From the NCBI RefSeq assembly GCF_002159175.1, contig NZ_NFGZ01000015.1:1-64000 (forward strand): 64,000 bases of DNA. Direction: 5' to 3'. This document shows, piece after piece, positions 1,445-17,124 of the stretch (positions are counted from its first letter, which is position 1; every line of letters begins with the position of its first letter). A program made the translations under genes and the position numbers. The notes below the pieces were generated by a model that was given only the letters and a program-made list of their open reading frames with translations, was not told the DNA's origin and did no database searches. The DNA comes from Flavonifractor sp. An92. GTDB lineage: Bacteria > Bacillota > Clostridia > Oscillospirales > Oscillospiraceae.

Positions 1445-1492
1445 AAAAGAGCCGTGGAGCGCAGCATATCTGCGTTCCACGGCTCTTTTTTA
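1445..1492. terminator. Bidirectional intrinsic terminator
   Basis: A strong inverted repeat (AGAGCCGTGG...CCACGGCTCT) is flanked by an A-rich left side and a T-run on the right. It sits between the convergent SLH gene and tupC and can serve both. Confidence 0.85.
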
Positions 1493-2137
1493 CAGCGTGT
1501 AAAAATCCAGAAAGGCCCGGGTCTCCGGGCTGCGGGGGTGTGACAGCACCTCTCGGGCGCTGCCCCGCTCCTCCAGACGGCCCTCCCGGAGAAAGAGCAC
1601 CTCGTCCGCCATGCGCCGGGCCTGGGTGAGGGAGTGTGTCACCAGCACCACGGTGCAGCCGGTGCGGGAGCGGTACTCCAGGATGCGCTCCTCGGCCAGG
1701 AGGGTGGCGGTCACGTCCATGGCCGCCGTGGGCTCGTCCAGAATGAGGAGGGGGTAGTCCCGCAGCAGCAGCCGGGCCAGGGCCAGGCGGGCGGTCTCCC
1801 CGCCGGAGAGCCGCCCGGCGCTCTGCTTTTCCAGGTGGATTAGACCGAAGGCCTCCAGCTGTGCCCGGGCCGCCTCCCGCCCCGCCCCCGTGAGGCGGAG
1901 GCTGCGCAGCACCTTCATGTGGAAGGGGTAGCTCCGCTGGGGCATGTACCCGGCCCCCAGCGGAGGGAGCTTCCCGGCGTCAGCGGGGATGACCCCGGCC
2001 AGGATGCGGGCAAAGGTGGACTTCCCGCAGCCGTTGGCCCCGATCACCGCGTGGACCGCCCCGTCGGTGAGGGTGAGCTCCGGCAGGTCCAGCACCTTCC
2101 GCCCGGCGTAGGTCTTGGAAAGGGCGGGCAGCTTCAT
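1490..2137 (-). CDS. tupC: Tungstate ABC transporter ATP-binding protein
   Basis: The 215-residue product is an ABC ATPase that powers tungstate import with TupB and TupA. Visible motifs are Walker A GANGCGKST (about residues 33-41), signature LSGGE (about 110), Walker B LLILDEPT (about 129-136) and a switch histidine in LVTHS. The length suits TupC, which lacks the C-terminal regulatory domain of ModC. It overlaps the tupB stop by four bases, so it is translationally coupled. The assignment to tungstate rests on the neighbour TupA and the nearby tungsten aldehyde oxidoreductase. The ATPase alone would not separate tungstate from molybdate or phosphate. Confidence 0.85.
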   Translation of the reverse strand: MKLPALSKTYAGRKVLDLPELTLTDGAVHAVIGANGCGKSTFARILAGVIPADAGKLPPLGAGYMPQRSYPFHMKVLRSLRLTGAGREAARAQLEAFGLIHLEKQSAGRLSGGETARLALARLLLRDYPLLILDEPTAAMDVTATLLAEERILEYRSRTGCTVVLVTHSLTQARRMADEVLFLREGRLEERGSAREVLSHPRSPETRAFLDFYTL

Positions 2138-2820
2138 CTCTTCAGCCTCCCATGCAGCAGGGCCACCCCGGCGTTGAGCACCAGAGACACCCCCAGCAGG
2201 ATGATGCCCAGGGCCAGCGCGGTGGTGAAGGACCCCATATTGGTGTAGTTCATGATGGCGGTAGTCATCACATTGGTTTTATAGGCGATGGCGCCCCCCA
2301 CCATGGACACCGCCCCCACCTCTGCAAAGGCCCGGCCCAGGCCCAGCAGATAGGCTGACAGGAGCTGGTACTGGCTCTCTCCCAGCAGGAGCAGCAGGGT
2401 ACGGCCCCGGCTCAATCCCAGGCCCAGGGCGGTCTCCCGGATGTCGGGTGCCACCGAGGACACATGGGACTCCAGGCTCCCGGCGATGAGGGGGGTGAGA
2501 AGGACCACCTGGGCGATGACCATGCCGCGCACTGTGTAGAGAAGGCGCAGATGCCGCAGGGGGCCCACCCCGGAAAAGAGCATGTAGCAGATGAGGCCCA
2601 CCACCACCGGCGGAAGGCCCATCAGGGTGCGGTTGAGCACCACCAGGACCCCCTTCCACCGCCCGGAGTAGCCGCCCAGCAGCACGCCCAGGGGCCCGCC
2701 CAGGACCAGAGCCAGCAGGGACGAGGCCAGCACCATGCGCAGCGTCGTAGCCAGGATGATCCCAAGCTGCCGGTCCCCTGACAGCAGGAGGGCCACCGCC
2801 TCCCGGAGCGCGGTCTGCAT
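2134..2820 (-). CDS. tupB: Tungstate ABC transporter permease
   Basis: The 228-residue product is a membrane permease of the TupB/WtpB kind. It shows about five to six hydrophobic segments, including the N-terminal SLLALVLGGPLGVLLGG and the C-terminal ALALGIILLGVSLVLNAG. The EAA-type cytoplasmic loop that contacts the ATPase is around DIRETALGLGLSRGRTLLLLLG. Its start has a good AAAGGAGG site. A perfect 12-bp hairpin separates it from tupA upstream. TupC overlaps its end. Confidence 0.85.
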   Translation of the reverse strand: MQTALREAVALLLSGDRQLGIILATTLRMVLASSLLALVLGGPLGVLLGGYSGRWKGVLVVLNRTLMGLPPVVVGLICYMLFSGVGPLRHLRLLYTVRGMVIAQVVLLTPLIAGSLESHVSSVAPDIRETALGLGLSRGRTLLLLLGESQYQLLSAYLLGLGRAFAEVGAVSMVGGAIAYKTNVMTTAIMNYTNMGSFTTALALGIILLGVSLVLNAGVALLHGRLKR

Positions 2821-2890: not shown

Positions 2891-3916
2891 TTACTCCATC
2901 ACGCCCCGGTTGGACTGGAAGGTGAGGAAGGTGGCCTTGTCGGAGAGAATGTAGCTCCCCGTCTCCTCGGCCATGGTGAGGCACACCCCCATGCCGGCGT
3001 TGGAGTAGGTGTACCAGTCGGTGTAGGCCTCCACCGACTCAGCCTCGTCGGTGATGCCCAGTTCCTCCGGCCAGAGGGAGACCTCCTTGGTGTGGGTGCC
3101 CGATTTGTCGCCACGGGAGACGAAGGGATACTCGCCCTCGGCGATGGCGGCGAAAGCGTCCTTCACGGAGGTGGCGTCCTTCACCCCGGCGGGGTCGGCG
3201 GAGGGGCCGCAGAGGACGAAGTAGTTGTACATGTAGGTCAGCCGCTCGCTCTCAAAGCCAGGCAGCACATAGGAGAACCCGGCGGCCACAAACTCCTCCT
3301 CCTGGCTCTTGGAGTGGACCAGCAGCAGGTCGGCATTGCCGCTCTGGGCGTTGGCGATGGCCTTGCCGGTGCCGGCGGAGGTCACCTCCACGGTGTAGCC
3401 GTACTTCTCCTCAAAGAGGGGCAGCAGATAGCCCAGCAGGCCCGAGTCGTTCACCGAGGTAGTGGTGGACATGCGGATGACCTTGGTCTCCTCGGTGGCC
3501 TGGGGGATCTCAGCGGTGGAGACCGGGGCGTCGTCCTTCAGGTAGAAGAGGTACTCGCCGTAGTCGGCGTACCCGTAGTCGGCGGCGGCCTGCTCTCCCT
3601 CTTCGGAGAGCATCCAGTTGATGAGGGCGGCGGCGCCCTCGGTGTTCACATACACGTCCGAAACGGCGTTGCCGTCGGCATCCACAAAGGGAGCATCGGG
3701 ATTCACCGCCAGGAGGGAGTAGTTATTGATCATGTCGTCGTCGGCCTCATAGAGGATGGTGAGGTCCACGGCGGGGGCTTCGCTCTGCTCCGGCGTCTCC
3801 GACGGGGCAGAGGGGGCGGAGGGAGTAGGGGACGCGGCGGTCTGACCGCCACCACATCCGGTCAAGGGCAGGACCAGCAGGGACAGGGACAGCAGCAGGG
3901 CAAGGGACTTTTTCAT
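2891..3916 (-). CDS. tupA: Tungstate-binding lipoprotein, circularly permuted
   Basis: This is the extracytoplasmic tungstate receptor. I chose ATG 3916 because it is preceded by GGAG; an in-frame TTG lies eight codons upstream (3940). From 3916 the product is 341 residues. It has a lipoprotein signal with lipobox LTGC (the Cys lies 21 residues after this start), then a Ser/Pro/Glu linker. The TupA hallmarks STTTSVNDSGLL and SRGDKSGTH are present. Odd feature: the segment that normally ends TupA (ILYEADDDMINNYSLLAVNP ... INWMLSEEGE ... YGEYLFYL) comes first, before STTTS, and the protein stops at FLTFQSNRG. The two halves are therefore in swapped order. Its own promoter lies upstream. Confidence 0.88.
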   Translation of the reverse strand: MKKSLALLLSLSLLVLPLTGCGGGQTAASPTPSAPSAPSETPEQSEAPAVDLTILYEADDDMINNYSLLAVNPDAPFVDADGNAVSDVYVNTEGAAALINWMLSEEGEQAAADYGYADYGEYLFYLKDDAPVSTAEIPQATEETKVIRMSTTTSVNDSGLLGYLLPLFEEKYGYTVEVTSAGTGKAIANAQSGNADLLLVHSKSQEEEFVAAGFSYVLPGFESERLTYMYNYFVLCGPSADPAGVKDATSVKDAFAAIAEGEYPFVSRGDKSGTHTKEVSLWPEELGITDEAESVEAYTDWYTYSNAGMGVCLTMAEETGSYILSDKATFLTFQSNRGVME

Positions 3917-4024: not shown

Positions 4025-4951
4025 TCACAGCTCAGACTGAGCGTTGAAAGTCTGACCGATCTGAAGCGCAGCGGTGTGGCCCGCCGCCTCCCCCTGGGCG
4101 GTGACAGTGTCCACGATGCGGTGGACGTGTTCGCAGTTGCCACACAGGTGGACCCAGCCCGGCAGCGGCGTGCCCAGGGGGCGTAGGAGCTCCCGCTCCG
4201 GGACAAGCCCCACGGCGGTGAGAAGGGTGTCACAGGGCAGAATTTCTTCCGCGCCGGTGTCCAGGTGGCGCACCGTTACGGCGGACACCCGGCCCCGGCC
4301 GTGGACCTCGGTGACCGTGGCGCGGAGGAGAAGGGGGATGCCCAACTGCTCAAAACAGGCCTTCTGGTGTCGGGGCTGGCCGCCGCAGAAGGCACGCTGC
4401 TCCACCACCGCCGCCACCCGGCAGCCGTTGCGGGTGAGCTGTTGGGCCATCACCAGCCCGATGTCCCCGCCGCCCAGGATGACGATGGTGTTCCCCACCC
4501 GGCGGCCCTCCAGGTTCACCAGGCGCTGGGCCTCCCCGGCGGTGAAGATCCCCGCCGGGCGGGTGCCCACCACCGGCAGGGCTCCGACGGGGGTCTCCCG
4601 GCACCCGGAGGCCAGCACCAGCTGCCGGAAAGTCAGGCGAAAGAGTCCGGTTTTTGCCCCGGAGAGCAGGGCGGAGTGGTCCGGGTGGACGGAGAGGACG
4701 GTGGTGCCGGCGAGAATCCGCACCGGGGTATCGGCCAGTTCCGCCACCACCCGCCGGGCATACTCCGCGCCGGTCAGATCTGCCCCGAACTGGACCAGGC
4801 CAAAGCCGTGGTGGAGGCACTGGGGGAGTACGCCCCCCAAAGCGTCCTCCCGCTCGGCCAGGACCACGGTGGCCCCGCAGTTTGCCGCGGCACAGGCGGC
4901 GGCCATCCCGGCCGCGCCGCCCCCCACCACCAGCACGTCACAGTGTTCCAC
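4025..4951 (-). CDS. NAD(P)/FAD-dependent pyridine nucleotide-disulfide-type oxidoreductase
   Basis: The 308-residue flavoprotein has an N-terminal FAD-binding VVGGGAAGMAAA (about residues 7-18), a second dinucleotide fold VILGGGDIGLVMAQQ (about 157-171, probably NAD(P)H) and a C-terminal FAD segment near LLTAVGLVPERELL. A single redox-type Cys pair (LCGNC) lies near the C terminus instead of the classical CxxxxC disulfide. In many Clostridia this family is encoded directly beside a GlpA/LhgO-type dehydrogenase with a BFD domain, as here (14-base overlap with the upstream gene), and often with a small DUF1667 protein, which is absent here. The role is probably electron transfer for that dehydrogenase; the substrate is unknown. 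Confidence 0.75.
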   Translation of the reverse strand: MEHCDVLVVGGGAAGMAAACAAANCGATVVLAEREDALGGVLPQCLHHGFGLVQFGADLTGAEYARRVVAELADTPVRILAGTTVLSVHPDHSALLSGAKTGLFRLTFRQLVLASGCRETPVGALPVVGTRPAGIFTAGEAQRLVNLEGRRVGNTIVILGGGDIGLVMAQQLTRNGCRVAAVVEQRAFCGGQPRHQKACFEQLGIPLLLRATVTEVHGRGRVSAVTVRHLDTGAEEILPCDTLLTAVGLVPERELLRPLGTPLPGWVHLCGNCEHVHRIVDTVTAQGEAAGHTAALQIGQTFNAQSEL

Positions 4952-6416
4952 GGTCGTTCCCTCCCAGCCAGTTCGTCCCCGGGCCGTCCCGGCGCAGATT
5001 TTCCACCGGGACCTTTAACTCCCGGGAAAGGAGGGCCATCACCTTCCCGGCGCACACTGAGCCCTGACACCGGCCCAGGCCGGTGCCCGCCCGCCGCTTC
5101 ACGCCGTCCAGGGTGACGGCGCCCCGGGCGATGGCGTCCAGCACCTCCCCCTCGGTGATCTCCCCGCAGCGGCACAAAATTTTCCCATAGGCGGGATTCT
5201 GTCGGATGAGGGCGGCCCGGGCCTCAAAGGACAATTCCTTCACCCGCACCGGCGGCGTGCGCACCGGGTCAAAGGCGGGATTTGGCTCCTTGCGCCCCAG
5301 CTCCTCCGCCACCAGTCCGGCCACATAGCGGCCCAGACCGTCGGCGCAGGTGAGGCCGGGGGTCTTGATACCTAAAAAACTCCAGAAGCGGGGCCGGGGA
5401 TTCTGGATGGTGAAGTTGTGGATGCTCTTCTCCTCACGCACCCAGGTTTCCCCCTCCGGATAGACATAGAAGGGATTGGGGCGGATGGCCCCGAAGGAGC
5501 GGATGGTTTGCGAGAGGTCCAGCTCGGGGAGCACCCGGGCGGTCCAGGTGCGGAGAAAGTCCAGGCCCCGGGCGGTGGTGGACCAGTCGTCTTTGTCCGC
5601 GCCTGGCCCCTCTGAGGGACCCAGCAGCAGTTTCCCCTCCACGGTGGGGACGACGGTGAGGCCCTTGCCCTTTTCCTCCGGCTCGTGGAAGAGAATGTGA
5701 CGAGGCGCGTGGTCCACCGTGTCGTCCAGCACAAGATACTCTGCCTTGCCGGGGAAGATGCGTACCGAGGGTTCCGCCACTAGCTCCTGCACCTGGTCGG
5801 CGTATAGCCCGCAGCAGTTCACCACCGCCCGGGCCCGGAAGGTTCCACGGGCGGTCTCCGCCCCCCAGTCCGGCCCGTCGGAGAAAAGGGCGGTCACTTG
5901 GGCATTCAAAATTATGGTACAGCCGTTGGCGGCGGCGTTTTCCCCGGCGGCCAGCCCCAGCTCCCAGGGGTTCACGGTGCCGGTGCCGGGGGCATAGAGG
6001 GCCCCGGTGACTTCCTCCGTCAGCCCCGGCTCCATGGCCCGGGCCTCCGCCCCGGAGAGGAGGCGCAGCCCCGGCACGCCGTTTTCCTGTCCCTGTCGGA
6101 GCTTGCGCTCCAGCACTCGTTGGGCCCGGGGGCCGCAGCTCACCATCAGGGAGCCGGGGCGGGCAAAGGGCACCCCCAGCTGGGCACAGAGGTCGTCAAA
6201 GGTCCGGTTGGCTTCCACACAGAGCCGGGTTTTCAAGGTGCCCGGCGGGGTGTCGCAGCCGGTATAGACAATGGCGGTGTTGGCCCGGGTGGTGCCGGTG
6301 CATAAATCCTCCCGCCCTTCCAGCAGAGCGGTGTGAAATCCCCAGCGGGTGAGGTGCCGGGCGGCGAAGCACCCCAGCACCCCGCCCCCCAACACCAGAA
6401 CGTCGTAGCGCTCCAT
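4938..6416 (-). CDS. FAD-dependent glycerol-3-phosphate/2-hydroxyacid dehydrogenase-like protein with BFD [2Fe-2S] domain
   Basis: The 492-residue protein belongs to the DAO/GlpA-LhgO family. An N-terminal FAD site VLGGGVLGCFAARHL (about residues 7-21) is followed by a substrate domain and a C-terminal BFD-like [2Fe-2S] domain with Cys pattern CRCGE ... GRCQGSVC (about 415-455). Family members oxidise glycerol-3-phosphate or 2-hydroxyglutarate; the sequence does not tell which applies here. It starts three bases after the MoeA-PBP stop and overlaps the next FAD protein, so it is part of the moeA operon. That setting, between pterin-cofactor genes and the tungstate transporter, is unusual for a glycerol gene. 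Confidence 0.75.
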   Translation of the reverse strand: MERYDVLVLGGGVLGCFAARHLTRWGFHTALLEGREDLCTGTTRANTAIVYTGCDTPPGTLKTRLCVEANRTFDDLCAQLGVPFARPGSLMVSCGPRAQRVLERKLRQGQENGVPGLRLLSGAEARAMEPGLTEEVTGALYAPGTGTVNPWELGLAAGENAAANGCTIILNAQVTALFSDGPDWGAETARGTFRARAVVNCCGLYADQVQELVAEPSVRIFPGKAEYLVLDDTVDHAPRHILFHEPEEKGKGLTVVPTVEGKLLLGPSEGPGADKDDWSTTARGLDFLRTWTARVLPELDLSQTIRSFGAIRPNPFYVYPEGETWVREEKSIHNFTIQNPRPRFWSFLGIKTPGLTCADGLGRYVAGLVAEELGRKEPNPAFDPVRTPPVRVKELSFEARAALIRQNPAYGKILCRCGEITEGEVLDAIARGAVTLDGVKRRAGTGLGRCQGSVCAGKVMALLSRELKVPVENLRRDGPGTNWLGGNDRGTL

Positions 6417-6419
6417 GCC

Positions 6420-8327
6420 TTAAAAATGCCGCCGGACCTGGCCGGGCCGGTCCAGGGTGTAGCCCCCCAGGGCCTCCAGACGGGCGCGGAACTCCGGCGA
6501 GGCCAGCGTCTCCAGAAGGCGCTGGACCATGGGGGTGTCCCAGGCGTAGTCGGGGATGAGAAGGTCGTACTGCTCCACGCATACCGGCAGGAAGTCCAGC
6601 CCATAGAGCCGGGCGGCGGACCAGATGCCCATGCCCGCGTCAGCGGTGCCCGAGGCGATCTGGGCGGCCACCGAGGTGTGGGTGAACTCCTCCCGGTCGT
6701 AGCCGTAGACCTGGGACGGGTCCACCTGTTCCTGCTTGCACAGGTAGTCGGCCAGGATGCGGGTGCCCGAGCCCTTCTGCCGGTTCACATACCGCAGGCC
6801 CGGCCGGGCGATGTCCCGGAAGCCCTGGAGCCCCAGGGGATTGCCGGGGGCCACCATCAGGCCCTGGGTGCGGCCCACGCACTCCACCTGGTACACCCCG
6901 CCGTTGGGAAAATACTTTTCGAGATAGGCGGTGTTGTAGGTGCCGTCGGCCTCGTTCAGGAGGTGACAGCCCGCCGCGTGGGTCTCGCCCCGGCGGATGG
7001 CCATGATCCCCCCCATGGAGCCCACGTGGGTGGAGCTCATAAAGACGGTGGGATCGGCGCTGTGCATCAGGTCGGACACCTCATCCAGCAGGGGGTCGTG
7101 GCTGCCGATGACCACCAGGGTGCGCTCCAGTTCCTCCGCGGGGCGGAGGAGCCGGACCTGGACTTTTTCGCCCGCCTCGTGGCCCTCGGTGCCCTGGGGG
7201 ATCTCCAGAATGCCGTCGGCCTTCATGAAGGAGGACACCACGCCGCTCCCGCGGGCCAGGGGAGAGGCCACCAGCTTCTCTCCCACCCGGCCCATGCGCA
7301 CCCGGACGTACTCCTGGTACTTGAGGCCGGATACCACGCTGCGGGCCAGGGTGGCCTCCACCGTGGGTGCCTTGGGTTGTCTGAGGCCGGTGAACTCCTC
7401 CACCAGCGGCTTCAAAAGCTGCTGGATGACCAGGATGCCCGAAACGGGATAGCCCGGCACGCCCAGGATGGGCACCTTGCCTTTGCAGCCCAGGATGGCG
7501 GGCTTGCCGGGCTTGATGGCCAGGCCGTGGCAGAACACCTCGCCCACCTCCCGGATGACGGCGGCGGAGTAGTCCTCCCGCCCCGCCGACGACCCGGCGT
7601 TGAGGATCACCATGTCGCACTGCCCGGCGGCCTCCTCCACGGCGGCGCGGATGTCCGCCTTCACGTCCTTCACGATGGGGAAGGTGCGGGGCGCCGCTCC
7701 CCACTCCTCCAGCATGGCGGAGAAGATGGAGGAGTTGAATTCCAGCACGTCGCCGGGTTTGGGGTCGGCGGTGGGGGGCACCACCTCGTCCCCGGTGGGG
7801 ATGATGCCCACCACCGGGCGGGCAAAAACCGTTACTTCCAGCACGCCCCCGGCGATCATGGAGCCGATGGCGGCGGGGGTGATGGCGGTGTGGCCGGGGA
7901 GGATCATCTCTCCGGCGCAGATGTCCTCGCCGATCTGGCGGACGTGCTGCCAGGGGGCCGCGGCGTCGTGGAGGACGGCGGTATCCCCCTCCCACACGAC
8001 ATCCTCGATCATCACCACGGCGTCCCGCCCGTCGGGGAGGGGGTCACCGGTATCCACCACCGTGTAGGCTTCGGTGGATAACCGCACTGGGGTGGTGTCG
8101 CTGGCCCCGAAGGTGTCCCGGGCGGTGACGGCGATGCCGTCCATGGCGCAGGCCGGGTAGTGGGGGGCACAGATGTGGGCGTAGACCGCCTGAGCGGTGA
8201 TCCGCCCCCGGGCCTGGGGGACCGGGATGGTCTCCGTCCGGGGAGCAAAGCCCCGCTGGCGCAGGAAGGCGGGGTATTGGTTTAGCGCCTGCTCCAGGGG
8301 CATGTTGGTGAGATAGGTAAAGGCCAT
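6420..8327 (-). CDS. MoeA-type molybdopterin molybdotransferase fused to a periplasmic-binding-protein-like domain
   Basis: The 635-residue two-part protein starts with a full MoeA (about residues 1-405) containing AMDGIAV, PTGDEV, NAGSSAGREDYS and GVPGYPVS motifs. MoeA inserts molybdate or tungstate into adenylylated pterin. The remainder (about 415-635) resembles the PBP-like domain of LysR or ModE-partner proteins: VVIGSHDPLLDEVSDL, NRQKGSGTR, DAGMGIWSAARLYGLDF. This domain often binds an oxyanion or small ligand and may sense or deliver the metal oxyanion (inference). It lies 13 bases after another moeA and 3 bases before the BFD flavoprotein gene. Confidence 0.85.
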   Translation of the reverse strand: MAFTYLTNMPLEQALNQYPAFLRQRGFAPRTETIPVPQARGRITAQAVYAHICAPHYPACAMDGIAVTARDTFGASDTTPVRLSTEAYTVVDTGDPLPDGRDAVVMIEDVVWEGDTAVLHDAAAPWQHVRQIGEDICAGEMILPGHTAITPAAIGSMIAGGVLEVTVFARPVVGIIPTGDEVVPPTADPKPGDVLEFNSSIFSAMLEEWGAAPRTFPIVKDVKADIRAAVEEAAGQCDMVILNAGSSAGREDYSAAVIREVGEVFCHGLAIKPGKPAILGCKGKVPILGVPGYPVSGILVIQQLLKPLVEEFTGLRQPKAPTVEATLARSVVSGLKYQEYVRVRMGRVGEKLVASPLARGSGVVSSFMKADGILEIPQGTEGHEAGEKVQVRLLRPAEELERTLVVIGSHDPLLDEVSDLMHSADPTVFMSSTHVGSMGGIMAIRRGETHAAGCHLLNEADGTYNTAYLEKYFPNGGVYQVECVGRTQGLMVAPGNPLGLQGFRDIARPGLRYVNRQKGSGTRILADYLCKQEQVDPSQVYGYDREEFTHTSVAAQIASGTADAGMGIWSAARLYGLDFLPVCVEQYDLLIPDYAWDTPMVQRLLETLASPEFRARLEALGGYTLDRPGQVRRHF

Positions 8328-8340
8328 GGCGATGTTCCTC

Positions 8341-9564
8341 CTATTCCGCGGTAAAGGTGATGACCGAGATCTCGGTCCCGGCAGAAAAGCCCTCGCAGTC
8401 CCGGGGGATACAGAAGTAGCCGTCCGCCCCTGCCAGGGTGGTGATGAGCCCCGACTTGCCCCGGACGGGGCGGGCCAGCAGGGTCCCGTTTTCCTCGCTC
8501 AGAAAGACCCCGTTGTACTGGGCCCGGCCGTGGTTGGCCCCCACCGTCTCGGTGAGGACGGCCTTCAAGGCACGGCGGCGGAGGGTCCTCCCCTCCAATC
8601 GGGCCAGCAGGGGACAGACGAAGAGATGGGTGGAGAAGAGGGCGGCTACCGGGTGGCCGGGGAGACCCATCAGGGGCTTTTCCCCAGACTTAGCCAGCAG
8701 GGTGGGTTTGCCCGGCTTCATGGCGATGCCGTGGAACAGGAGCTCCCCGAAGGAGGAGAGCACCGTCACGGCGGCGTCCTTGGCCCCCACGGAGCTGCCG
8801 CCCGAGAGGACCACCAGGTCGTTTTCCACCAGAGCTTTGGCCACGCCGGCGCGAAGGGTGGGCTCATCATCGGGGAAAATGCCGTACTGGGTCACCCGGG
8901 CCCCCGCCTGGGTGAGCACCGCCCCCACCAGGGGGGCGTTCACATCCCGGACCTGGCCGGAGCCGGGGACCTGCTCTGGCGGCACGATCTCGTCTCCGGT
9001 GGAGAGGACCCCCACCCGTACCTGAGGCCGCACCGGGACCTCCGTCACCCCCAGGGCGGCCAGGGCCCCGATATCCTGGGGCTGGAGCCGCCGGGCGGCG
9101 GGGAGGACCAGGTCCCCCGGCTTCACATCGTCACCTTTAAAGATGAGGTTGTTGCCCGGGGCCACGCTCTTGAGGATGCCGACGGTACCGTCACCGTAGT
9201 CCTCGCTGTACTCCACCATCTGCACACCATCCGCCCCGGGGGGGAGCGCCCCGCCGGTGGGGATGGCCATGCACTCTCCCGGCCCTACGCTCCCCGGGGG
9301 TGCCTCCCCCATGAGCACCTCGCCCACCCGGGTGAGGAGGGCGGGGAGGGCGTCGGAGCAGCCGAAGGTGTCGGCGGAGCGGAGGGCGTAGCCGTCCACC
9401 GTGGAGCGGTCAAAGCCGGGGACGAACTCGGCCGCCCGGATGTCGGCGGCCAGCACCCGGCCCAGGGCGGCGTCCAGCGGGACGGTCTCGGCCGGGCGGT
9501 TTAACGTCGTGAAGGCGGTCTGGATCAGGTCCAGCACCTCGTCGGGGGTCTTGACGGTGAGCAT
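8341..9564 (-). CDS. moeA: Molybdopterin molybdotransferase
   Basis: The 407-residue enzyme inserts molybdate or tungstate into molybdopterin-AMP. MoeA motifs seen include RSTVDGYALR, GDEIVPPEQ, LSGGSSVGAKD and GLPGHPVAALF. ATG 9564 is preferred to the ATG three codons upstream because GGAG is nine bases before it but directly abuts the upstream ATG. It heads an apparent four-gene operon running to 4025. Because the tupABC and AOR genes are adjacent, I infer that this copy serves tungsten, while the MoeA at 53328-54533 sits with molybdate genes. A 10-bp hairpin lies just upstream of its ribosome site. Confidence 0.85.
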   Translation of the reverse strand: MLTVKTPDEVLDLIQTAFTTLNRPAETVPLDAALGRVLAADIRAAEFVPGFDRSTVDGYALRSADTFGCSDALPALLTRVGEVLMGEAPPGSVGPGECMAIPTGGALPPGADGVQMVEYSEDYGDGTVGILKSVAPGNNLIFKGDDVKPGDLVLPAARRLQPQDIGALAALGVTEVPVRPQVRVGVLSTGDEIVPPEQVPGSGQVRDVNAPLVGAVLTQAGARVTQYGIFPDDEPTLRAGVAKALVENDLVVLSGGSSVGAKDAAVTVLSSFGELLFHGIAMKPGKPTLLAKSGEKPLMGLPGHPVAALFSTHLFVCPLLARLEGRTLRRRALKAVLTETVGANHGRAQYNGVFLSEENGTLLARPVRGKSGLITTLAGADGYFCIPRDCEGFSAGTEISVITFTAE

Positions 9565-9582
9565 GTTCCTCATCTCCTGTGG

Positions 9583-9651: not shown

Positions 9652-10356
9652 ATGGAGGCGCGGTATCAGCGCAATCTGGGGACACTCAGCGAGGCCGAGT
9701 GCCGCCTGTTGGGGGAAAAGCGGGTCTTTCTGGCCGGGTGCGGCGGCCTGGGGGGCTTTCTGCTGGAACATCTAGTCCGCCTGGGGGTGGGGCACATCAC
9801 GGCGGTGGACGGGGACGTGTTCGAAGTGAGCAACTTAAACCGCCAGCTTTTGAGCACGGCGGAGAATCTGGGTTCCTCCAAGGCGGAGGCCGCCGCCGCC
9901 CGGGCCCGGGAAGTGAACCCTGGCGTGGAGGTGCGCCCGGTGAACACCTTCCTTACAGCGGAAAATGCCCACGAACTGCTGGCCGGTCACGACCTGGCTC
10001 TGGACGCCCTGGACAGCGGCGCGAGCCGCCGGGTGCTGGAGCGGGCCTGCGGGGAGCTGGGCATCCCCCTGGTCCACGGGGCCATCCAGGGCTGGTACAT
10101 CCAGGTGGCGGTGGCCCCGCCGGGAGAGGGGCTGCTGGCGGGGCTCTATCCCCCCGGGCGGGAGGCCGTCCGGGACAAGAGCACCCTCTCCTTCGTCCCC
10201 GCCCTGTGCGCCGCCCTCCAGGCCGCCGAGGCGGTGAAGCTCCTGTGCGGCCGGGAGAGCACCCTGTGGGGCAAGCTCCTCACCGGCGACACCCTGGAGC
10301 AGGAATATCAGGTGCTCCCGCTCGCCGGTTTCTCCGGGTCGGGGAGCGCGAAGTAG
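9652..10356 (+). CDS. ThiF/MoeB/HesA-family E1-like adenylyltransferase
   Basis: The 234-residue protein has the nucleotide-binding GCGGLGGFLLEHL (about residues 29-41), the acidic AVDGDVFEVSNLNRQ with the Arg finger, and a DALDSG segment. Enzymes of this family adenylate the C-terminal Gly-Gly of a ubiquitin-like sulfur carrier. The obvious partner is the MoaD-like protein encoded at 13792-14073. The zinc-binding CxxC pairs of larger MoeB or ThiF proteins are not visible. Its 3' end overlaps the convergent lysR gene by 49 bases. It is transcribed divergently from moeA. Confidence 0.8.
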   Translation: MEARYQRNLGTLSEAECRLLGEKRVFLAGCGGLGGFLLEHLVRLGVGHITAVDGDVFEVSNLNRQLLSTAENLGSSKAEAAAARAREVNPGVEVRPVNTFLTAENAHELLAGHDLALDALDSGASRRVLERACGELGIPLVHGAIQGWYIQVAVAPPGEGLLAGLYPPGREAVRDKSTLSFVPALCAALQAAEAVKLLCGRESTLWGKLLTGDTLEQEYQVLPLAGFSGSGSAK

Positions 10357-11470: not shown

Positions 11471-11510
11471 GTGGCACTCGAGTCCCGCAGCGCGGGATTT
11501 GAGGCAAGCT
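11471..11510 (+). promoter_or_regulatory. Hairpin between a strong Shine-Dalgarno site and the first AOR-operon start
   Basis: AAGGAGG at 11465-11471 is nearly 40 bases before the ATG at 11511. Between them is a stem (TCCCGC agc GCGGGA core, extended by CTC/GAG at 11478-11504). A second, weaker GAGG (11501-11504) is part of the stem. Folding either brings the strong site close to the ATG or hides the weak one, suggesting translational control. Confidence 0.5.
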
Positions 11511-11981
11511 ATGAGGCAATTGGTCGTCAAGCCGGAGAAGTGCATCGGCTGCCGCACCTGCGAGCTGGTGTGCTCGTTCGGGCACTATGAGCAGTTCAAC
11601 CCCCGCCTGGCCAACATCACCGTGCTGGAGTACGAGGCGGCCACCCTGGCCGTGCCGGTGGTCTGCCAGCAGTGTGAGGACGCCAGCTGTATGAAGGTCT
11701 GCCCCGTGAAGGCCATCCACCGGGATGAGAACGGGGCCTGTGTCATCAACTACGACAAGTGCATCGGCTGCAAGATGTGCCGCAGCGCCTGCCCCCTGGG
11801 CAACATGTCCTACTCCACCATCGTGAAGAAGGTATTCAAGTGCGACCTGTGCGGCGGAGACCCCAAGTGTGTGAAATACTGCCCCGGCGGGGCCCTGGCC
11901 TTTGAGGACCCGGACGCCCGGGACGTGCGGAAGAAGCTGACCGCCGACAAGATCGTGGCGGCCATGGGAACGGAGGGTTGA
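11511..11981 (+). CDS. Four-cluster ferredoxin-like electron-transfer subunit of the AOR complex
   Basis: The 156-residue protein has four [4Fe-4S] Cys groups: CIGCRTCELVC, CQQCEDASCMKVCP, CIGCKMCRSACP and CDLCGGDPKCVKYCP. It belongs to the 4Fe-4S dicluster family that accompanies tungsten aldehyde oxidoreductases (AorA/WorS-like). It would wire the AOR subunit to the NuoEF-type module. ATG 11511 is chosen; the frame also extends to a TTG four codons upstream. The AOR gene follows after 3 bases. Confidence 0.85.
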   Translation: MRQLVVKPEKCIGCRTCELVCSFGHYEQFNPRLANITVLEYEAATLAVPVVCQQCEDASCMKVCPVKAIHRDENGACVINYDKCIGCKMCRSACPLGNMSYSTIVKKVFKCDLCGGDPKCVKYCPGGALAFEDPDARDVRKKLTADKIVAAMGTEG

Positions 11982-11984
11982 GCC

Positions 11985-13787
11985 ATGGGAAACGGATATG
12001 TTGGGACCATCCTGCGGGTGAACCTGAAAAAGGGCTCCATCGTGAAGGAGCCCCTGAACCGCAAGAACGCCGACGAGTACGTGGGCGCCCGGGGCCTGGG
12101 CACCAAGTACTACTGCGATGAGTGCGACCCCAAGTGCGACCCCCTGGGCCCGGACAACAAGCTCATTTTCATGACCGGCCCCCTCACCGGCACCTGCGCC
12201 ACCTCCTCCGGGCGGTACAACGCGGTGGCCAAGGCCCCCCTCACCGGCACCATCGGCGCGGCCAACTCCGGCGGCCACTTCGGCCCGGAGCTGAAGTACG
12301 CCGGATACGACGGCATCATCTTCGAGGACGTGTCCGAGAAGCCGGTCTATCTCTACATCAACGACGGCGTGGTGGAGCTGCGGGACGCCTCCCACCTGTG
12401 GGGCAAGGACGTGTATGACACCACCGACGCCCTCCGGGAGGAGCTGGGCGACGAGTTCCGCATCGCCTGCATCGCCCCCACCGGCGAGAACGGCTGTCTC
12501 TTCGCCGGTATCATGAACGACAAGCACCGGGCCGCCGGCCGCGGCGGCATCGGCGCGGTGATGGGCTCCAAGAAGCTCAAGGCCATTGCCGTCCGGGGCA
12601 CCGGCTCGGTGACCGTGGCCCGCCCCGAGGCCTTCTTCAAGGCCTGTATGGACGCCCGGGCCACCCTGAAGGCCCACCCCGTCACCGGCGCGGGCCTGTC
12701 CGCCTACGGCACCCAGATCCTGGTGAACATCGTCAACGCCTCCGGCGGCCTGCCCCTCAACAACGGCCGGGACGGCTCGGTGTTCGACCTGGCCGACGAC
12801 ATCTCCGGCGAGACCCTGGCCGCCAAGTACCTGCTGCGCAACAAGGGCTGCTTCGGCTGCTCCATCGGCTGCGGCCGGGCGGTGGAGATCAAGGACGGCC
12901 CCTTCAAGTCCAAGGGCGAGGGCCCCGAGTATGAGGCCGGCTGGTCCTTCGGCGCCGACTGCGGCGTCAGCGATCTGGCCGCCGTGTGCGACGCCAACTT
13001 CATGTGCAACCAGTACGGCATCGACCCCATCACCATGGGCGCCACCGTGGCCTGCGCCATGGAGCTCTATGAGATGGGCGCCATCCCCGAGGAGGACATC
13101 GGCTTCCCCCTGCGCTTCGGCGATGCGGCCGCCATGGTGAAGGCCGTGGAGATGACCTGCAAGGGCGAGGGCTTCGGCAAGGTGATGGGCCTGGGCTCCT
13201 ACCGCATGGCGGAGAAGTACGGTCACCCCGAACTGTCCATGTCGGTGAAAAAGCAGGAGATGCCCGCCTACGACGGCCGTGCCATCCAGGGCATCGGCCT
13301 GGAGTACGCCACCTCCAACCGGGGCGGCTGCCACGTCCGGGGCTACATGATCTCCCCCGAGGTGCTGGGTATCCCCGTGAAAACCGATCCCCTGGTCACC
13401 GAGGGCAAGGCAAGCCTCCTGAAAACCTTCCAGGACCTCACCGCCCTGGTGGACGCCACCGGCATCTGCCTCTTTACCACCTTCGGCATCGGCCTTCCCG
13501 AAGTGGCCGCCCAGTACCGGGAGGCGGTGGGCAGCGACGAGAGCGACGAGGAGATCCTCCTGAAGGGCGAGCGGATCTGGAACCTGGAGAAGCAGTTCAA
13601 CATCGCCGCCGGGGTGGAGAAGGACACCCTGCCCCCGCGTCTGCTGCGGGAGAAGCTGCCCAGCGGCCCGGCCGAGGGCAAGGTCAACGACCTCTACACC
13701 ATGCTGGCCGAGTACTACGCCGCCCGTGGCTGGGACGCCGAGGGCATCCCCACGGCGGAGAAGCTGGCCGAGCTACATCTGAAATAA
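11985..13787 (+). CDS. Tungsten-containing aldehyde:ferredoxin oxidoreductase catalytic subunit
   Basis: The 600-residue enzyme oxidises aldehydes to carboxylic acids at a tungsten bis-pterin centre. The start MGNGYVGTILRVNL and the motifs TGPLTGTCATSSGRYN and AAGRGGIGAVMGSKKLKAI are typical of AOR domain 1. The [4Fe-4S] ligands are C289, C292, C296 and C495 (CFGCSIGC and GICLF), matching the spacing known in archaeal AOR almost exactly. Length is normal for the family. It is preceded by the polyferredoxin and followed by moaD after four bases. The composition of the whole operon matches the Wor/AOR complexes that couple aldehyde oxidation to NAD+ and ferredoxin reduction. Substrate range cannot be read from sequence. 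Confidence 0.92.
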   Translation: MGNGYVGTILRVNLKKGSIVKEPLNRKNADEYVGARGLGTKYYCDECDPKCDPLGPDNKLIFMTGPLTGTCATSSGRYNAVAKAPLTGTIGAANSGGHFGPELKYAGYDGIIFEDVSEKPVYLYINDGVVELRDASHLWGKDVYDTTDALREELGDEFRIACIAPTGENGCLFAGIMNDKHRAAGRGGIGAVMGSKKLKAIAVRGTGSVTVARPEAFFKACMDARATLKAHPVTGAGLSAYGTQILVNIVNASGGLPLNNGRDGSVFDLADDISGETLAAKYLLRNKGCFGCSIGCGRAVEIKDGPFKSKGEGPEYEAGWSFGADCGVSDLAAVCDANFMCNQYGIDPITMGATVACAMELYEMGAIPEEDIGFPLRFGDAAAMVKAVEMTCKGEGFGKVMGLGSYRMAEKYGHPELSMSVKKQEMPAYDGRAIQGIGLEYATSNRGGCHVRGYMISPEVLGIPVKTDPLVTEGKASLLKTFQDLTALVDATGICLFTTFGIGLPEVAAQYREAVGSDESDEEILLKGERIWNLEKQFNIAAGVEKDTLPPRLLREKLPSGPAEGKVNDLYTMLAEYYAARGWDAEGIPTAEKLAELHLK

Positions 13788-14120: not shown

Positions 14121-14594
14121 ATGGATCTCTCCATGGAGGAAATCCAGACCATTTTGAATCGCTATCCCCCGGAGCAGCGGTACAGCCTGGCCATGCTCCA
14201 GGACATGCAGCATCAGTTCAACTACATTCCCCGGGTGGGGATGGAGGCCCTGGCGGAGTACCTGGGCTGTCCCCTGTCCTCCCTGTACGCCATGGCCACC
14301 TTCTACAAGGCCCTGAGCCTCCAGCCCAAGGGCAAGCACATCATCAAGCTGTGCGACGGCACGGCCTGCCACATCCGGGGCTCCACCGCCCTGGTGGACG
14401 GGGTGAAGCGCCTGCTGGGCATCGGCGCGGGGGAGACCTCCCCCGACGGGCTCTTCTCCCTGGAGCTGGTCAACTGCCTGGGCTCCTGCGCCCTGGCCCC
14501 GGTGATGGTCATTGACGACACCTATTACGGAAAAGTGACGCTGGAGAAGCTCCCCGGCATCCTGGCCCAATATCAGGAGGTGACGCCCTCATGA
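14121..14594 (+). CDS. NuoE/HydC-like [2Fe-2S] subunit
   Basis: The 157-residue protein is a thioredoxin-like [2Fe-2S] ferredoxin of the NuoE family. Two Cys pairs bind the cluster: CDGTAC (about residues 76-81) and CLGSC (about 117-121). It partners the NuoF-like subunit that follows with a four-base overlap. In bifurcating hydrogenases and Wor-type complexes it acts as the small flavoprotein partner. Here it is the third functional part of the AOR complex (WorC-like). Confidence 0.88.
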   Translation: MDLSMEEIQTILNRYPPEQRYSLAMLQDMQHQFNYIPRVGMEALAEYLGCPLSSLYAMATFYKALSLQPKGKHIIKLCDGTACHIRGSTALVDGVKRLLGIGAGETSPDGLFSLELVNCLGSCALAPVMVIDDTYYGKVTLEKLPGILAQYQEVTPS

Positions 14595-16384
14595 GTAAGA
14601 CCGTCCTGGTGTGCTGCGGCACCGGCTGCCTGGCCAACGGCAGCGCCAAGGTGGCCGCCGAGTTCCACCGCCTGCTGGAGGGCTCGGATCACGCCGTGGA
14701 GTGGCTGGTAAAGGAGACCGGCTGCAACGGCTTCTGCGAGAACGGCCCCCTGGTGAAGATCGACCCGGACGACATCACCTACTACAAGGTCCAGGTGAAG
14801 GACGTCCCCGAGATCGAGGAAAAGACCGTCCTGGGCGGGGAGACGGTGGACCGCCTCCTCTACAAGAACGACCAGGGCCAGCGGGTGCGCAGTCAGCGGG
14901 AAAACCCCTTCTACGCCCCCCAGCACAAGATCGCCCTGCGCAACATCGGCGCCATCTCCCCCACCAGCGTGGAGGACTACGTGGCCCACGGGGGCTACCA
15001 GGCCCTGCGCAAGGCCCTCACCATGACCCCGGAAGAGATCCTGGACGAGATGGACCGCTCGGGCCTGCGGGGCCGTGGCGGAGCCGGCTTCCCCACCGGG
15101 CGGAAGTGGCGCACCGCCGCCGGGTATGACAAATTCCCCAAATATGTGGCCTGCAACGGCGACGAGGGCGACCCCGGCGCGTTCATGGACCGCTCCATCC
15201 TGGAGGGCGACCCCCATTCGGTGCTGGAGGGCATGGCCATCTGCGCCCTGGCCATCGGCGCGGAGGAGGGCTTCCTCTACATCCGGGACGAGTACGCCCT
15301 GGCGGTGAAGAACGTCCGCGCCGCCATCGCCGAGGCCGAGGCCTACGGCGCGCTGGGCGATCACATCCTGGGATCGGACAAGAAATTAAAACTCTCTGTG
15401 GTCAGAGGCGGCGGCGCGTTCGTCTGCGGCGAGTCCACCGCCCTCATGGCCTCGGTGGAGGGCCGGGTGGGCGAGCCCCGGGCCAAGTACATCCGCTCGG
15501 TGCAGCGGGGTCTGTGGGACCAGCCCACCGTCCTCAACAACGTGGAGACCCTGGCCAATGTGCCGGTGATCCTCCTCCACGGCGGCGACGCCTTCGCCCG
15601 GATGGGCACCGAGGGCTCCAAAGGCACCAAGGTGTTCGCCCTGGTGGGCAAGGTCAAGCGCACCGGCCTGGTGGAGGTGCCCATGGGGGTGACCCTGCGG
15701 CACCTGATCTACGACATCGGCGGCGGCGTGCAGGGGGACCGGCCCTTTAAGGCCGTCCAGACCGGCGGCCCCTCCGGCGGGTGCATCCCGGCGGAGCTGC
15801 TGGATCTGCCGGTGGACTTCGACACCCTCAAGAGCCGGGGGGCCATGATGGGCTCCGGCGGCATGATCGTCATGGACGACCGCAGCTGCATGGTGGAGGT
15901 GGCCCGGTACTACATCAAGTTCCTCTCCGAGGAGTCCTGCGGCAAGTGTACCCCCTGCCGGGAGGGGTTAAGGCACATGCTCCAGATCCTCACCGACATC
16001 TGCGAGGGCCGGGGGCAGCTCAGCGACCTGGACCTGCTGGAGGAGCTGTGCCACACCCTGGCCGACAGCTCCCTGTGCGCCCTGGGCAAGTCGGCCCCCA
16101 ACCCGGTCCTCACCACCCTGAAATACTTCCGGCAGGAGTATGAGGCCCACATCCTGGAGCACCGCTGTCCCGCCGGGGTGTGCGCCGCCCTCACCAGCTT
16201 CGCCATTGACGCGGAGAAGTGCGTGGGCTGCGGCGCCTGCGGCCGGGCCTGTCCCGCCGGAGCGGTGTCCGGCGAGCGGAAGCAGCCCCATGTCATCGAC
16301 CCTGCCCGGTGCATCGCCTGCGGCTCCTGCCGGGAGGCCTGTAAGTTCGGGGCCGTGGTCACGAAAGGCAAGGTGGCGGGATGA
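14591..16384 (+). CDS. NuoF/HydB-like FMN, NADH-binding subunit
   Basis: The 597-residue protein has an N-terminal [2Fe-2S] thioredoxin-like part (about residues 1-100), the FMN/NADH region with RGRGGAGFPTGRKW (about 157-170) and CNGDEGDPGAFMDR, the [4Fe-4S] motif SCGKCTPCREG (about 449-457), and a C-terminal two-cluster ferredoxin with CVGCGACGRACP and CIACGSCREAC. This layout is found in NAD-linked electron-bifurcating enzymes (HydB, NfnB-like, WorB). It would exchange electrons between NAD(H), ferredoxin and the tungsten AOR subunit. It overlaps both neighbours by four bases. Confidence 0.9.
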   Translation: MSKTVLVCCGTGCLANGSAKVAAEFHRLLEGSDHAVEWLVKETGCNGFCENGPLVKIDPDDITYYKVQVKDVPEIEEKTVLGGETVDRLLYKNDQGQRVRSQRENPFYAPQHKIALRNIGAISPTSVEDYVAHGGYQALRKALTMTPEEILDEMDRSGLRGRGGAGFPTGRKWRTAAGYDKFPKYVACNGDEGDPGAFMDRSILEGDPHSVLEGMAICALAIGAEEGFLYIRDEYALAVKNVRAAIAEAEAYGALGDHILGSDKKLKLSVVRGGGAFVCGESTALMASVEGRVGEPRAKYIRSVQRGLWDQPTVLNNVETLANVPVILLHGGDAFARMGTEGSKGTKVFALVGKVKRTGLVEVPMGVTLRHLIYDIGGGVQGDRPFKAVQTGGPSGGCIPAELLDLPVDFDTLKSRGAMMGSGGMIVMDDRSCMVEVARYYIKFLSEESCGKCTPCREGLRHMLQILTDICEGRGQLSDLDLLEELCHTLADSSLCALGKSAPNPVLTTLKYFRQEYEAHILEHRCPAGVCAALTSFAIDAEKCVGCGACGRACPAGAVSGERKQPHVIDPARCIACGSCREACKFGAVVTKGKVAG

Positions 16385-17124
16385 ACATTACCATCGACGG
16401 AAAAGTCTGTACCTGTGAGAAGGGGGAATTCCTCCTCCAGGTGGCCCGGCGCAACGGGTTCTACATCCCCACCCTCTGCCACCACGAGGCGCTGCCCGGG
16501 CAGGGCTGCTGCCGGGTGTGTATCGTGGAGGTGGACGAGGGCCGGGGGCCCAAGATCGTGGTCTCCTGTGTGTACCCGGTGGAGCGGGAGTGTACCGTCT
16601 ACACCGACAGCGACAAGGTCCGCCGCCAGCGGGGGATGATCCTGTCTCTGCTCCACAAGCGGGCCCCGGACAGCGAGCTCATCGCCCAGATGTGCGCCCA
16701 TTACGGCGCGCCCGCTCTGGAGCGGCTGCCCAACGTGGAGCCAGGAAAGTGCATCCTGTGCGGCCTGTGCGCCCGGGCCTGCTCCGAGCTGAGCGTGGGG
16801 GCCATCTCCACCGTCAACCGGGGCGTCACCAAGGAGGTCGCCACCCCCTACCACGATGAGAGCCCGGTGTGTGTGGGCTGCGGGTCCTGCGCCAGCGTGT
16901 GTCCCACCGGGGCCATTGAGCTGACCGAGACGGCGACCACCCGCACCATTTGGGGCAAAACCTTTGCACTGGTGCGCTGTGCCAAGTGCGGCGCGGTGCT
17001 GGGTACGGCGGAGGAGCTGGCTCTGGCCGCGAAGAAGGCGGGCCAGGAGACGGAGACGCTCTGCGAGCGCTGCCGCAAGGTAGCCCTGTCCCAGGTGCTG
17101 GCCCATACCTACGGCGACGAATGA
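16381..17124 (+). CDS. NuoG/HydA N-terminal-like iron-sulfur subunit
   Basis: The 247-residue protein starts with a plant-type [2Fe-2S] domain (CHHEALPGQGCCRVC ... VSC, residues about 33-61) and a His-containing NuoG-type loop. Two [4Fe-4S] clusters follow (CILCGLCARAC about 122-132; CVGCGSCASVCP about 161-172), then two CxxC pairs near the C terminus (CAKC, CERC) that may hold another metal. It has no hydrogenase or molybdopterin domain, so it is an electron-transfer part only. It is the last gene of the AOR operon (WorA-like), followed by a terminator. Confidence 0.85.
   Translation: MNITIDGKVCTCEKGEFLLQVARRNGFYIPTLCHHEALPGQGCCRVCIVEVDEGRGPKIVVSCVYPVERECTVYTDSDKVRRQRGMILSLLHKRAPDSELIAQMCAHYGAPALERLPNVEPGKCILCGLCARACSELSVGAISTVNRGVTKEVATPYHDESPVCVGCGSCASVCPTGAIELTETATTRTIWGKTFALVRCAKCGAVLGTAEELALAAKKAGQETETLCERCRKVALSQVLAHTYGDE

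Follow-up and report, generated by a model that had tools for sequence, protein, structure and literature searches.

TupA of the TupABC importers belongs to the type II binding proteins. In the Desulfovibrio protein, lobe B is formed by residues 91-200, and the cleft residues are T9-T11, S12, H59, R118, T124 and D170 (PMC5517513). A natural circular permutant has been described among type I binding proteins: TpMglB-2 (Tp0684) of Treponema pallidum, designated 'Type Ic', whose permutation was suggested to relate to membrane tethering (PMC4990184). Tungsten uptake by gut bacteria is of current interest, and tungsten is used by almost all enzymes of the aldehyde ferredoxin oxidoreductase family (PMC11980592); thiF, moeA and tupABC genes near such oxidoreductases have already been described (PMC13328260).

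The window that we analyzed is a stretch of 64,000 nucleotides from Flavonifractor sp. An92 (contig NZ_NFGZ01000015.1, positions 1 to 64,000). On its minus strand, positions 2891-3916 translate as a single open frame of 341 amino acids, with an ATG at 3916 and no internal stop. Judging from sequence comparisons, the product is very probably a natural circular permutant of TupA that serves a TupABC-type importer as its substrate-binding lipoprotein. The relevant features are listed here with their basis in brackets:

1490 to 2137, minus strand: ABC ATPase of 215 amino acids, presumed to be TupC by position only (profile matches)
2134 to 2820, minus strand: tupB-like permease (NF038017, 168 bits, above the cut-off; NF041773 TupB, 121 bits, below the cut-off of 320)
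2891 to 3916, stop codon included, minus strand: gene for the permuted TupA-like lipoprotein, 341 amino acids (translation; relatives)
3854 to 3916, minus strand: signal peptide and lipobox (LTGC, Cys21), residues 1-21 (by eye from the translation)
3539 to 3769, minus strand: moved module, residues 50-126, corresponding to the C-terminus of canonical TupA (sequence and profile alignments)
3485 to 3538, minus strand: linker joining the old C-end to the old N-end, residues about 127-144 (fixed spacing; confident model)
2894 to 3484, minus strand: body, residues 145-341, corresponding to the part of canonical TupA that starts with the STTTS strand and ends with the helix preceding LDLxIL (alignments)
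6420 to 8327, minus strand: MoeA fused to a PBP-like domain (profile matches)
8341 to 9573, minus strand: MoeA (profile matches)
9652 to 10356, plus strand: ThiF-family protein (profile match)
11499 to 11981, plus strand: 4Fe-4S ferredoxin-type protein (profile match)
11985 to 13787, plus strand: aldehyde ferredoxin oxidoreductase (AFOR_N and AFOR_C), likely a tungsten enzyme (profile match)
14121 to 17124, plus strand: NuoE-like, NuoF-like and ferredoxin-domain proteins, likely an NADH module by our own grouping (profile matches)

Read by eye, the chain runs from a signal peptide with lipobox through a variable linker, a front module and a short joining linker to the body. The front module ends in YGEYLFYL, and the body extends from KVIRMSTTTS to the C-terminal end. 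The original prediction, that the C-terminal module of a TupA had been moved to the front of this protein, quoted a series of stretches, and the translation contains all of them in the order given: ILYEADDDMINNYSLLAVNP, LINWMLSEEGEQAAADYG, YGEYLFYL, then STTTSVNDSGLLGYLLPLFEEKYG, SRGDKSGTH and SYILSDKATFLTF. Among 50 permuted proteins, the spacing between LF and TTTS is 28 residues without exception, and the sequence of the linker is conserved too. A loose pattern detected a lipobox-like motif in 42 of these 50. By the same pattern, the proteins of L032, L037, L040, L043, L045, L047, L049 and L058 have an apparent signal peptide without a lipobox cysteine and may be devoid of a lipid anchor.

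The tungsten-type oxidoreductase gene lies 8 kb from the permuted tupA, and the two MoeA genes, the ThiF-family gene and the aldehyde ferredoxin oxidoreductase gene with its ferredoxin- and Nuo-type genes all fall within about 14 kb. One scan for relatives of the permuted gene yielded 56 loci; tupB is downstream of it in 50 of them and the ATPase gene in 47, the rest reaching a contig end. The aldehyde ferredoxin oxidoreductase family was present in all ten genomes tested, six with the permuted form and four with canonical matches only. In five of the six, the oxidoreductase gene is on the same contig as the permuted gene and at most 15 kb away; the assembly of the sixth, G123, is split into 410 contigs. 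Since such a gene also lies within 15 kb of a canonical tupA in G245, G416 and G521, it marks a general tungsten context and nothing special to the permuted form.

The use of tungsten by this enzyme family, together with the described thiF, moeA and tupABC neighborhoods, makes tungstate the likely ligand. The eight named cleft residues correspond to T151-T153, S154, H201, R268, T274 and D326, all of which sit in the unmoved body. T151, T152, S154, H201, R268 and T274 are kept in 56/56 permuted rows, and T153 and D326 in 54 each (two Ser and two gaps, respectively); the same residue occupies these eight sites in 60 to 65 of 65 canonical rows. Given this conservation in the unmoved body, nothing points to a changed specificity. 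Three MoCoBD_1 matches in the window's own genome suggest that molybdate could be used too. These matches, the MoeA genes nearby and three short insertions in the window protein relative to the canonical rows compared would also fit a permuted homologue of TupA that binds mainly molybdate or some other oxyanion. We consider this rather unlikely, as the eight cleft residues are kept, aldehyde ferredoxin oxidoreductase genes are close by, and a MoCoBD_1 match is absent in four of the six permuted genomes tested. In a permuted TupA serving tungstate import, tungstate would bind between two lobes closing on it and would then pass to TupB.

Other arrangements were observed in the window and at the loci collected. 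Two FAD-dependent oxidoreductase genes, with SoxA-like and glycerol-3-phosphate oxidase model matches, separate the permuted tupA from the MoeA genes (4025-6416, minus strand), and relatives of one or both occur in 17 of the 56 scan loci. At L124 (G305:C41:7000-13500), a TupA-like frame of 271 amino acids (3148-3678) has the body without a detected tail and is followed by tupB and moeA matches. At L155 (G731:C59:7500-14500), a plus-strand frame of 720 amino acids from about 1717 shows, on inspection by eye, GGDEF-like and HD-type stretches ahead of a canonical TupA-like domain; its sequence perhaps represents a signaling protein joined to a tungstate-binding domain.

We then considered the evidence that the front module derives from the TupA C-terminus. 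Pfam matches fall on the body only (PBP_like_2 at residues 140-335, SBP_bac_11 at 164-252). The NCBIfam TupA model (NF041772) aligned query residues 145-337 with profile positions 15-193, and the upstream stretch of the same gene with positions 192-253 (E 3.2e-4). The window protein scores 145 bits against an equivalog cut-off of 400; this cut-off was reached in 0/295 genomes of an order sample, 0/391 of a class sample and 0/398 of a phylum sample, and missing it therefore does not discriminate. Many full-length TupA-like proteins are present in these three samples, yet none attains the cut-off. In phmmer searches against PDB chains, query residues 146-335 aligned with residues 6-180 of 3muq, and query residues 50-100 with its residues 182-233. 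The swapped order recurred with 3lr1, 5my5 and 3kn3: in each of these four TupA crystal-structure sequences, query 146-337 corresponds to the first part of the chain and query 49-100 to a later part. The second piece alone gave weak scores against 3muq, 3lr1, 5my5 and 3kn3 (14.2, 8.1, 4.1 and 5.1 bits), and was therefore tested by profiles.

Two profiles, one of front modules and one of bodies, were built from 50 full-length permuted sequences (49 scan loci and the window protein). The front-module profile matched the chain end of canonical TupA ORFs with E values from 4e-17 to about 8e-3. In these ORFs the tail match mostly starts no more than 6 residues from the end of the body match, with some overlaps of up to 3; the first ORF of L120, a partial match, is an exception. 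Among the ORFs of other genomes, the two-profile search returned none that was matched by the front-module profile without the body profile. Permuted proteins stop before the position at which the canonical tail begins. At E < 0.5 and in the loci then collected, the order body-then-tail was found in 65 distinct ORFs and tail-then-body in 56, identical rotated strings being merged. In the same loci and at the same threshold, no ORF had three strong modules; L036 has a second, negligible module match (E 0.33). Five ORFs with one module only (L073, L077, L079, L124 and the second ORF of L126, the last two with the body only) were left out of this count. The canonical arrangement given in the original prediction, with the STTTS body first and the tail last, is seen in the 65 ORFs.

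Among the canonical rows compared, the closest is L082, which comes from a genome of the same order (G245) and has the canonical chain order without the insertions seen in the permuted protein. Once the latter is rotated, the two agree at 132 of 243 positions (54%), 98/176 in the body and 34/67 in the tail; the next two canonical rows have a tail identity of 35-36% to the window protein. These comparisons bear on the alternative that the front segment is an unrelated or convergent stretch placed before a truncated TupA. Such a reading could draw on the low scores of the tail against individual PDB chains (at most 14.2 bits), but it is contradicted by the profile matches, which find canonical tails beside the body with E values down to 4e-17, by the identity of the tail to that of L082, and by the early stop of the permuted proteins; we judge it very improbable. 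The profiles, the four swapped PDB alignments and an order kept across genomes support, at the level of sequence, the claim that the front module is a homologue of the TupA C-terminus moved to the front of the chain.

The original prediction had also proposed a search for the same order in other genomes. Among the 56 scan loci, 53 carry both modules, with the swapped order in 53/53 and the canonical order in none; L073, L077 and L079 are interrupted or cut, with one module detected in each. An assembly or frameshift artefact, in which a rearranged contig or fused fragments of this draft genome (60 contigs) simulate the permutation, is scarcely credible and is refuted by the conservation of the order in other assemblies, namely in all 53 two-module loci including an isolate, Slackia equolifaciens DSM 24851 (L036), by a swapped copy in the single-contig genome G1123 (100% completeness), and by a linker length of 28 in 50/50.

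The 56 loci come from Oscillospiraceae, Ruminococcaceae, Lachnospiraceae, Peptococcaceae and other Clostridia or Bacillota assemblies, mostly MAGs, and from Slackia (Actinomycetota). The permuted form was found in 0/9 other genomes of the window's genus and in 8/149 relatives including its own genome, the other seven being verified by module order. The TupA model matched in 7/295 genomes of the order sample, with the permuted form in G000, G110 and G123; in this sample G123 holds a canonical copy beside the permuted one, so that both chain orders occur in one genome. It matched in 50/391 genomes of the class sample, at least four of which have a verified permuted form (the window's own genome, G342, G655 and G498), and in 188/398 of the phylum sample, where nearly all of the matches listed cover the profile almost from end to end without a break. 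The genome collections overlap (G1079 and G498 are apparently the genomes of L024 and L054), and the counts are therefore not independent. The description of a permuted TupA as rare holds in part: the form is uncommon in genome samples, as in the 8/149 relatives, yet one scan sufficed to recover 56 loci.

A 68-sequence tree contained 45 canonical proteins and, after rotation, 23 of the 56 permuted ones; 12 near-copies and eight canonical rows that were long or odd had been removed beforehand. It unites the permuted proteins on a single branch (100/100), and L082 is their sister (99/94). In a 121-row tree, the 56 permuted rows constitute one side of a branch (100), which L082 joins at 95. A 122-row tree, from which the same eight canonical rows had been dropped, placed 63 permuted rows in one group with a support of 100. 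The trees are without an outgroup; the permuted form is regarded as derived because it is placed beside one canonical lineage and because the canonical order is widespread. The TupB partners of the permuted clusters (n = 50) also form one group (99), which fits inheritance of the cluster as a unit; the TupB of L082 was flagged as a long branch in this tree. In the 121-row tree, the actinobacterial rows L036, L044 and L063 branch off basally among the permuted proteins, outside a 53-row Bacillota group (99). A transfer between Bacillota and Actinomycetota is likely. The permuted gene would have originated by a tandem duplication of tupA, followed by fusion and then by loss of the first body and the last tail; no intermediate with duplicated modules was found. 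Separately, L119 (G461) and L120 (G364) have neighboring tandem pairs of canonical tupA-like genes, the copies of which are strongly diverged.

To place the cut, the Desulfovibrio numbering was mapped via the alignment with 5my5 (offset of 23 from the 5my5 chain, counted by hand). In this sequence alignment, the cut is between residues about 180 and 187 of the Desulfovibrio alaskensis protein (DaTupA), inside lobe B; it falls in the loop that connects the helix following TDRGTY to the strand L-ILVEGD. The front module supplies one lobe B strand (window residues about 52-65) and the second half of lobe A. In a canonical chain, lobe A would be split between the N- and C-ends around lobe B. The permuted chain would start with the lobe B strand around LTILYEADDDMINN, build the whole of lobe A as an uninterrupted stretch (residues about 66-225) with the fixed-length linker inside, and then form the central strand (226-238) and the rest of lobe B. 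Since it would start and finish in lobe B, both chain ends and the lipid anchor would be on that lobe. The alignment indicates that the lobe order is changed from A-B-A to B-A-B and that the lipid anchor is moved to lobe B. We class the protein as a permuted relative of TupA and not as a TupA sensu stricto, because its linear order departs from body-then-tail (lobes A-B-A), while the cleft, partners and homology agree.

The structure prediction proposed along with the original claim gave a confident result across both modules, and a complete single fold is predicted. The AlphaFold2 model, computed with 29 of the 50 full-length permuted sequences, has a mean pLDDT of 85.3 and a pTM of 0.76. Blocks over residues 51-150 have a pLDDT of 87-98, with 97 for the linker blocks (131-150). 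Dips to 77-81 are seen in blocks 151-160, 181-190, 201-210 and 331-340; residues 1-50 are below 60, and the last residue is low too. With this model, the first six PDB hits of Foldseek were chains of four TupA entries (191-196 columns, TMt 0.37-0.65). Since this aligner is sequential and can cover the body only, the result agrees with the permutation and does not prove the place of the front module.

The literature search returned, among the matches listed, mostly non-subscription and free of preprints, neither a permuted TupA nor a permuted type II binding protein. A tentative extension of the permuted-TupA reading, which we hold to be possible but doubtful, is that this is the first case of natural circular permutation among type II binding proteins, that it arose once and is common to gut Clostridia and Slackia, and that it was kept because the shift of the anchor from lobe A to lobe B alters presentation to TupBC or the closing of the lobes. 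Where close relatives exist in both chain orders, a natural permutation lends itself well to studying how chain order affects folding, lobe closure and docking. Here, an identity of 54% after rotation, the same cleft residues and the presence of both forms in G123 make a direct comparison of the two orders possible.

Compared with TupA of the TupABC systems of Desulfovibrio alaskensis (5my5) and Geobacter sulfurreducens (3lr1), the window protein shares both modules, the TTTS and SRGD-SGTH motifs, the eight named cleft residues and the adjacent tupB-like and ATPase genes. It differs in the rotated chain with its cut in lobe B, in the fixed-length linker between the old ends, in the short insertions and in an anchor that would be on lobe B. 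With TpMglB-2 it has in common that both are permuted binding lipoproteins of ABC importers with relatives in Gram-positive gut bacteria (PMC4990184). By sequence and structure search, however, the window protein belongs to the TupA family and not to the permuted type I sugar-binding fold (Type Ic); TpMglB-2 has a type I fold, a glucose ligand and another permutation site, and its moved part is reported to be only 13% identical to the E. coli protein (PMC4990184), as against 54% between the rotated window protein and its sister. The present group is relevant to the idea, put forward for TpMglB-2, that permutation is a response to membrane tethering (PMC4990184): at least eight of 50 permuted proteins seem to have a signal peptide without a lipobox cysteine, an argument against tethering being strictly required.
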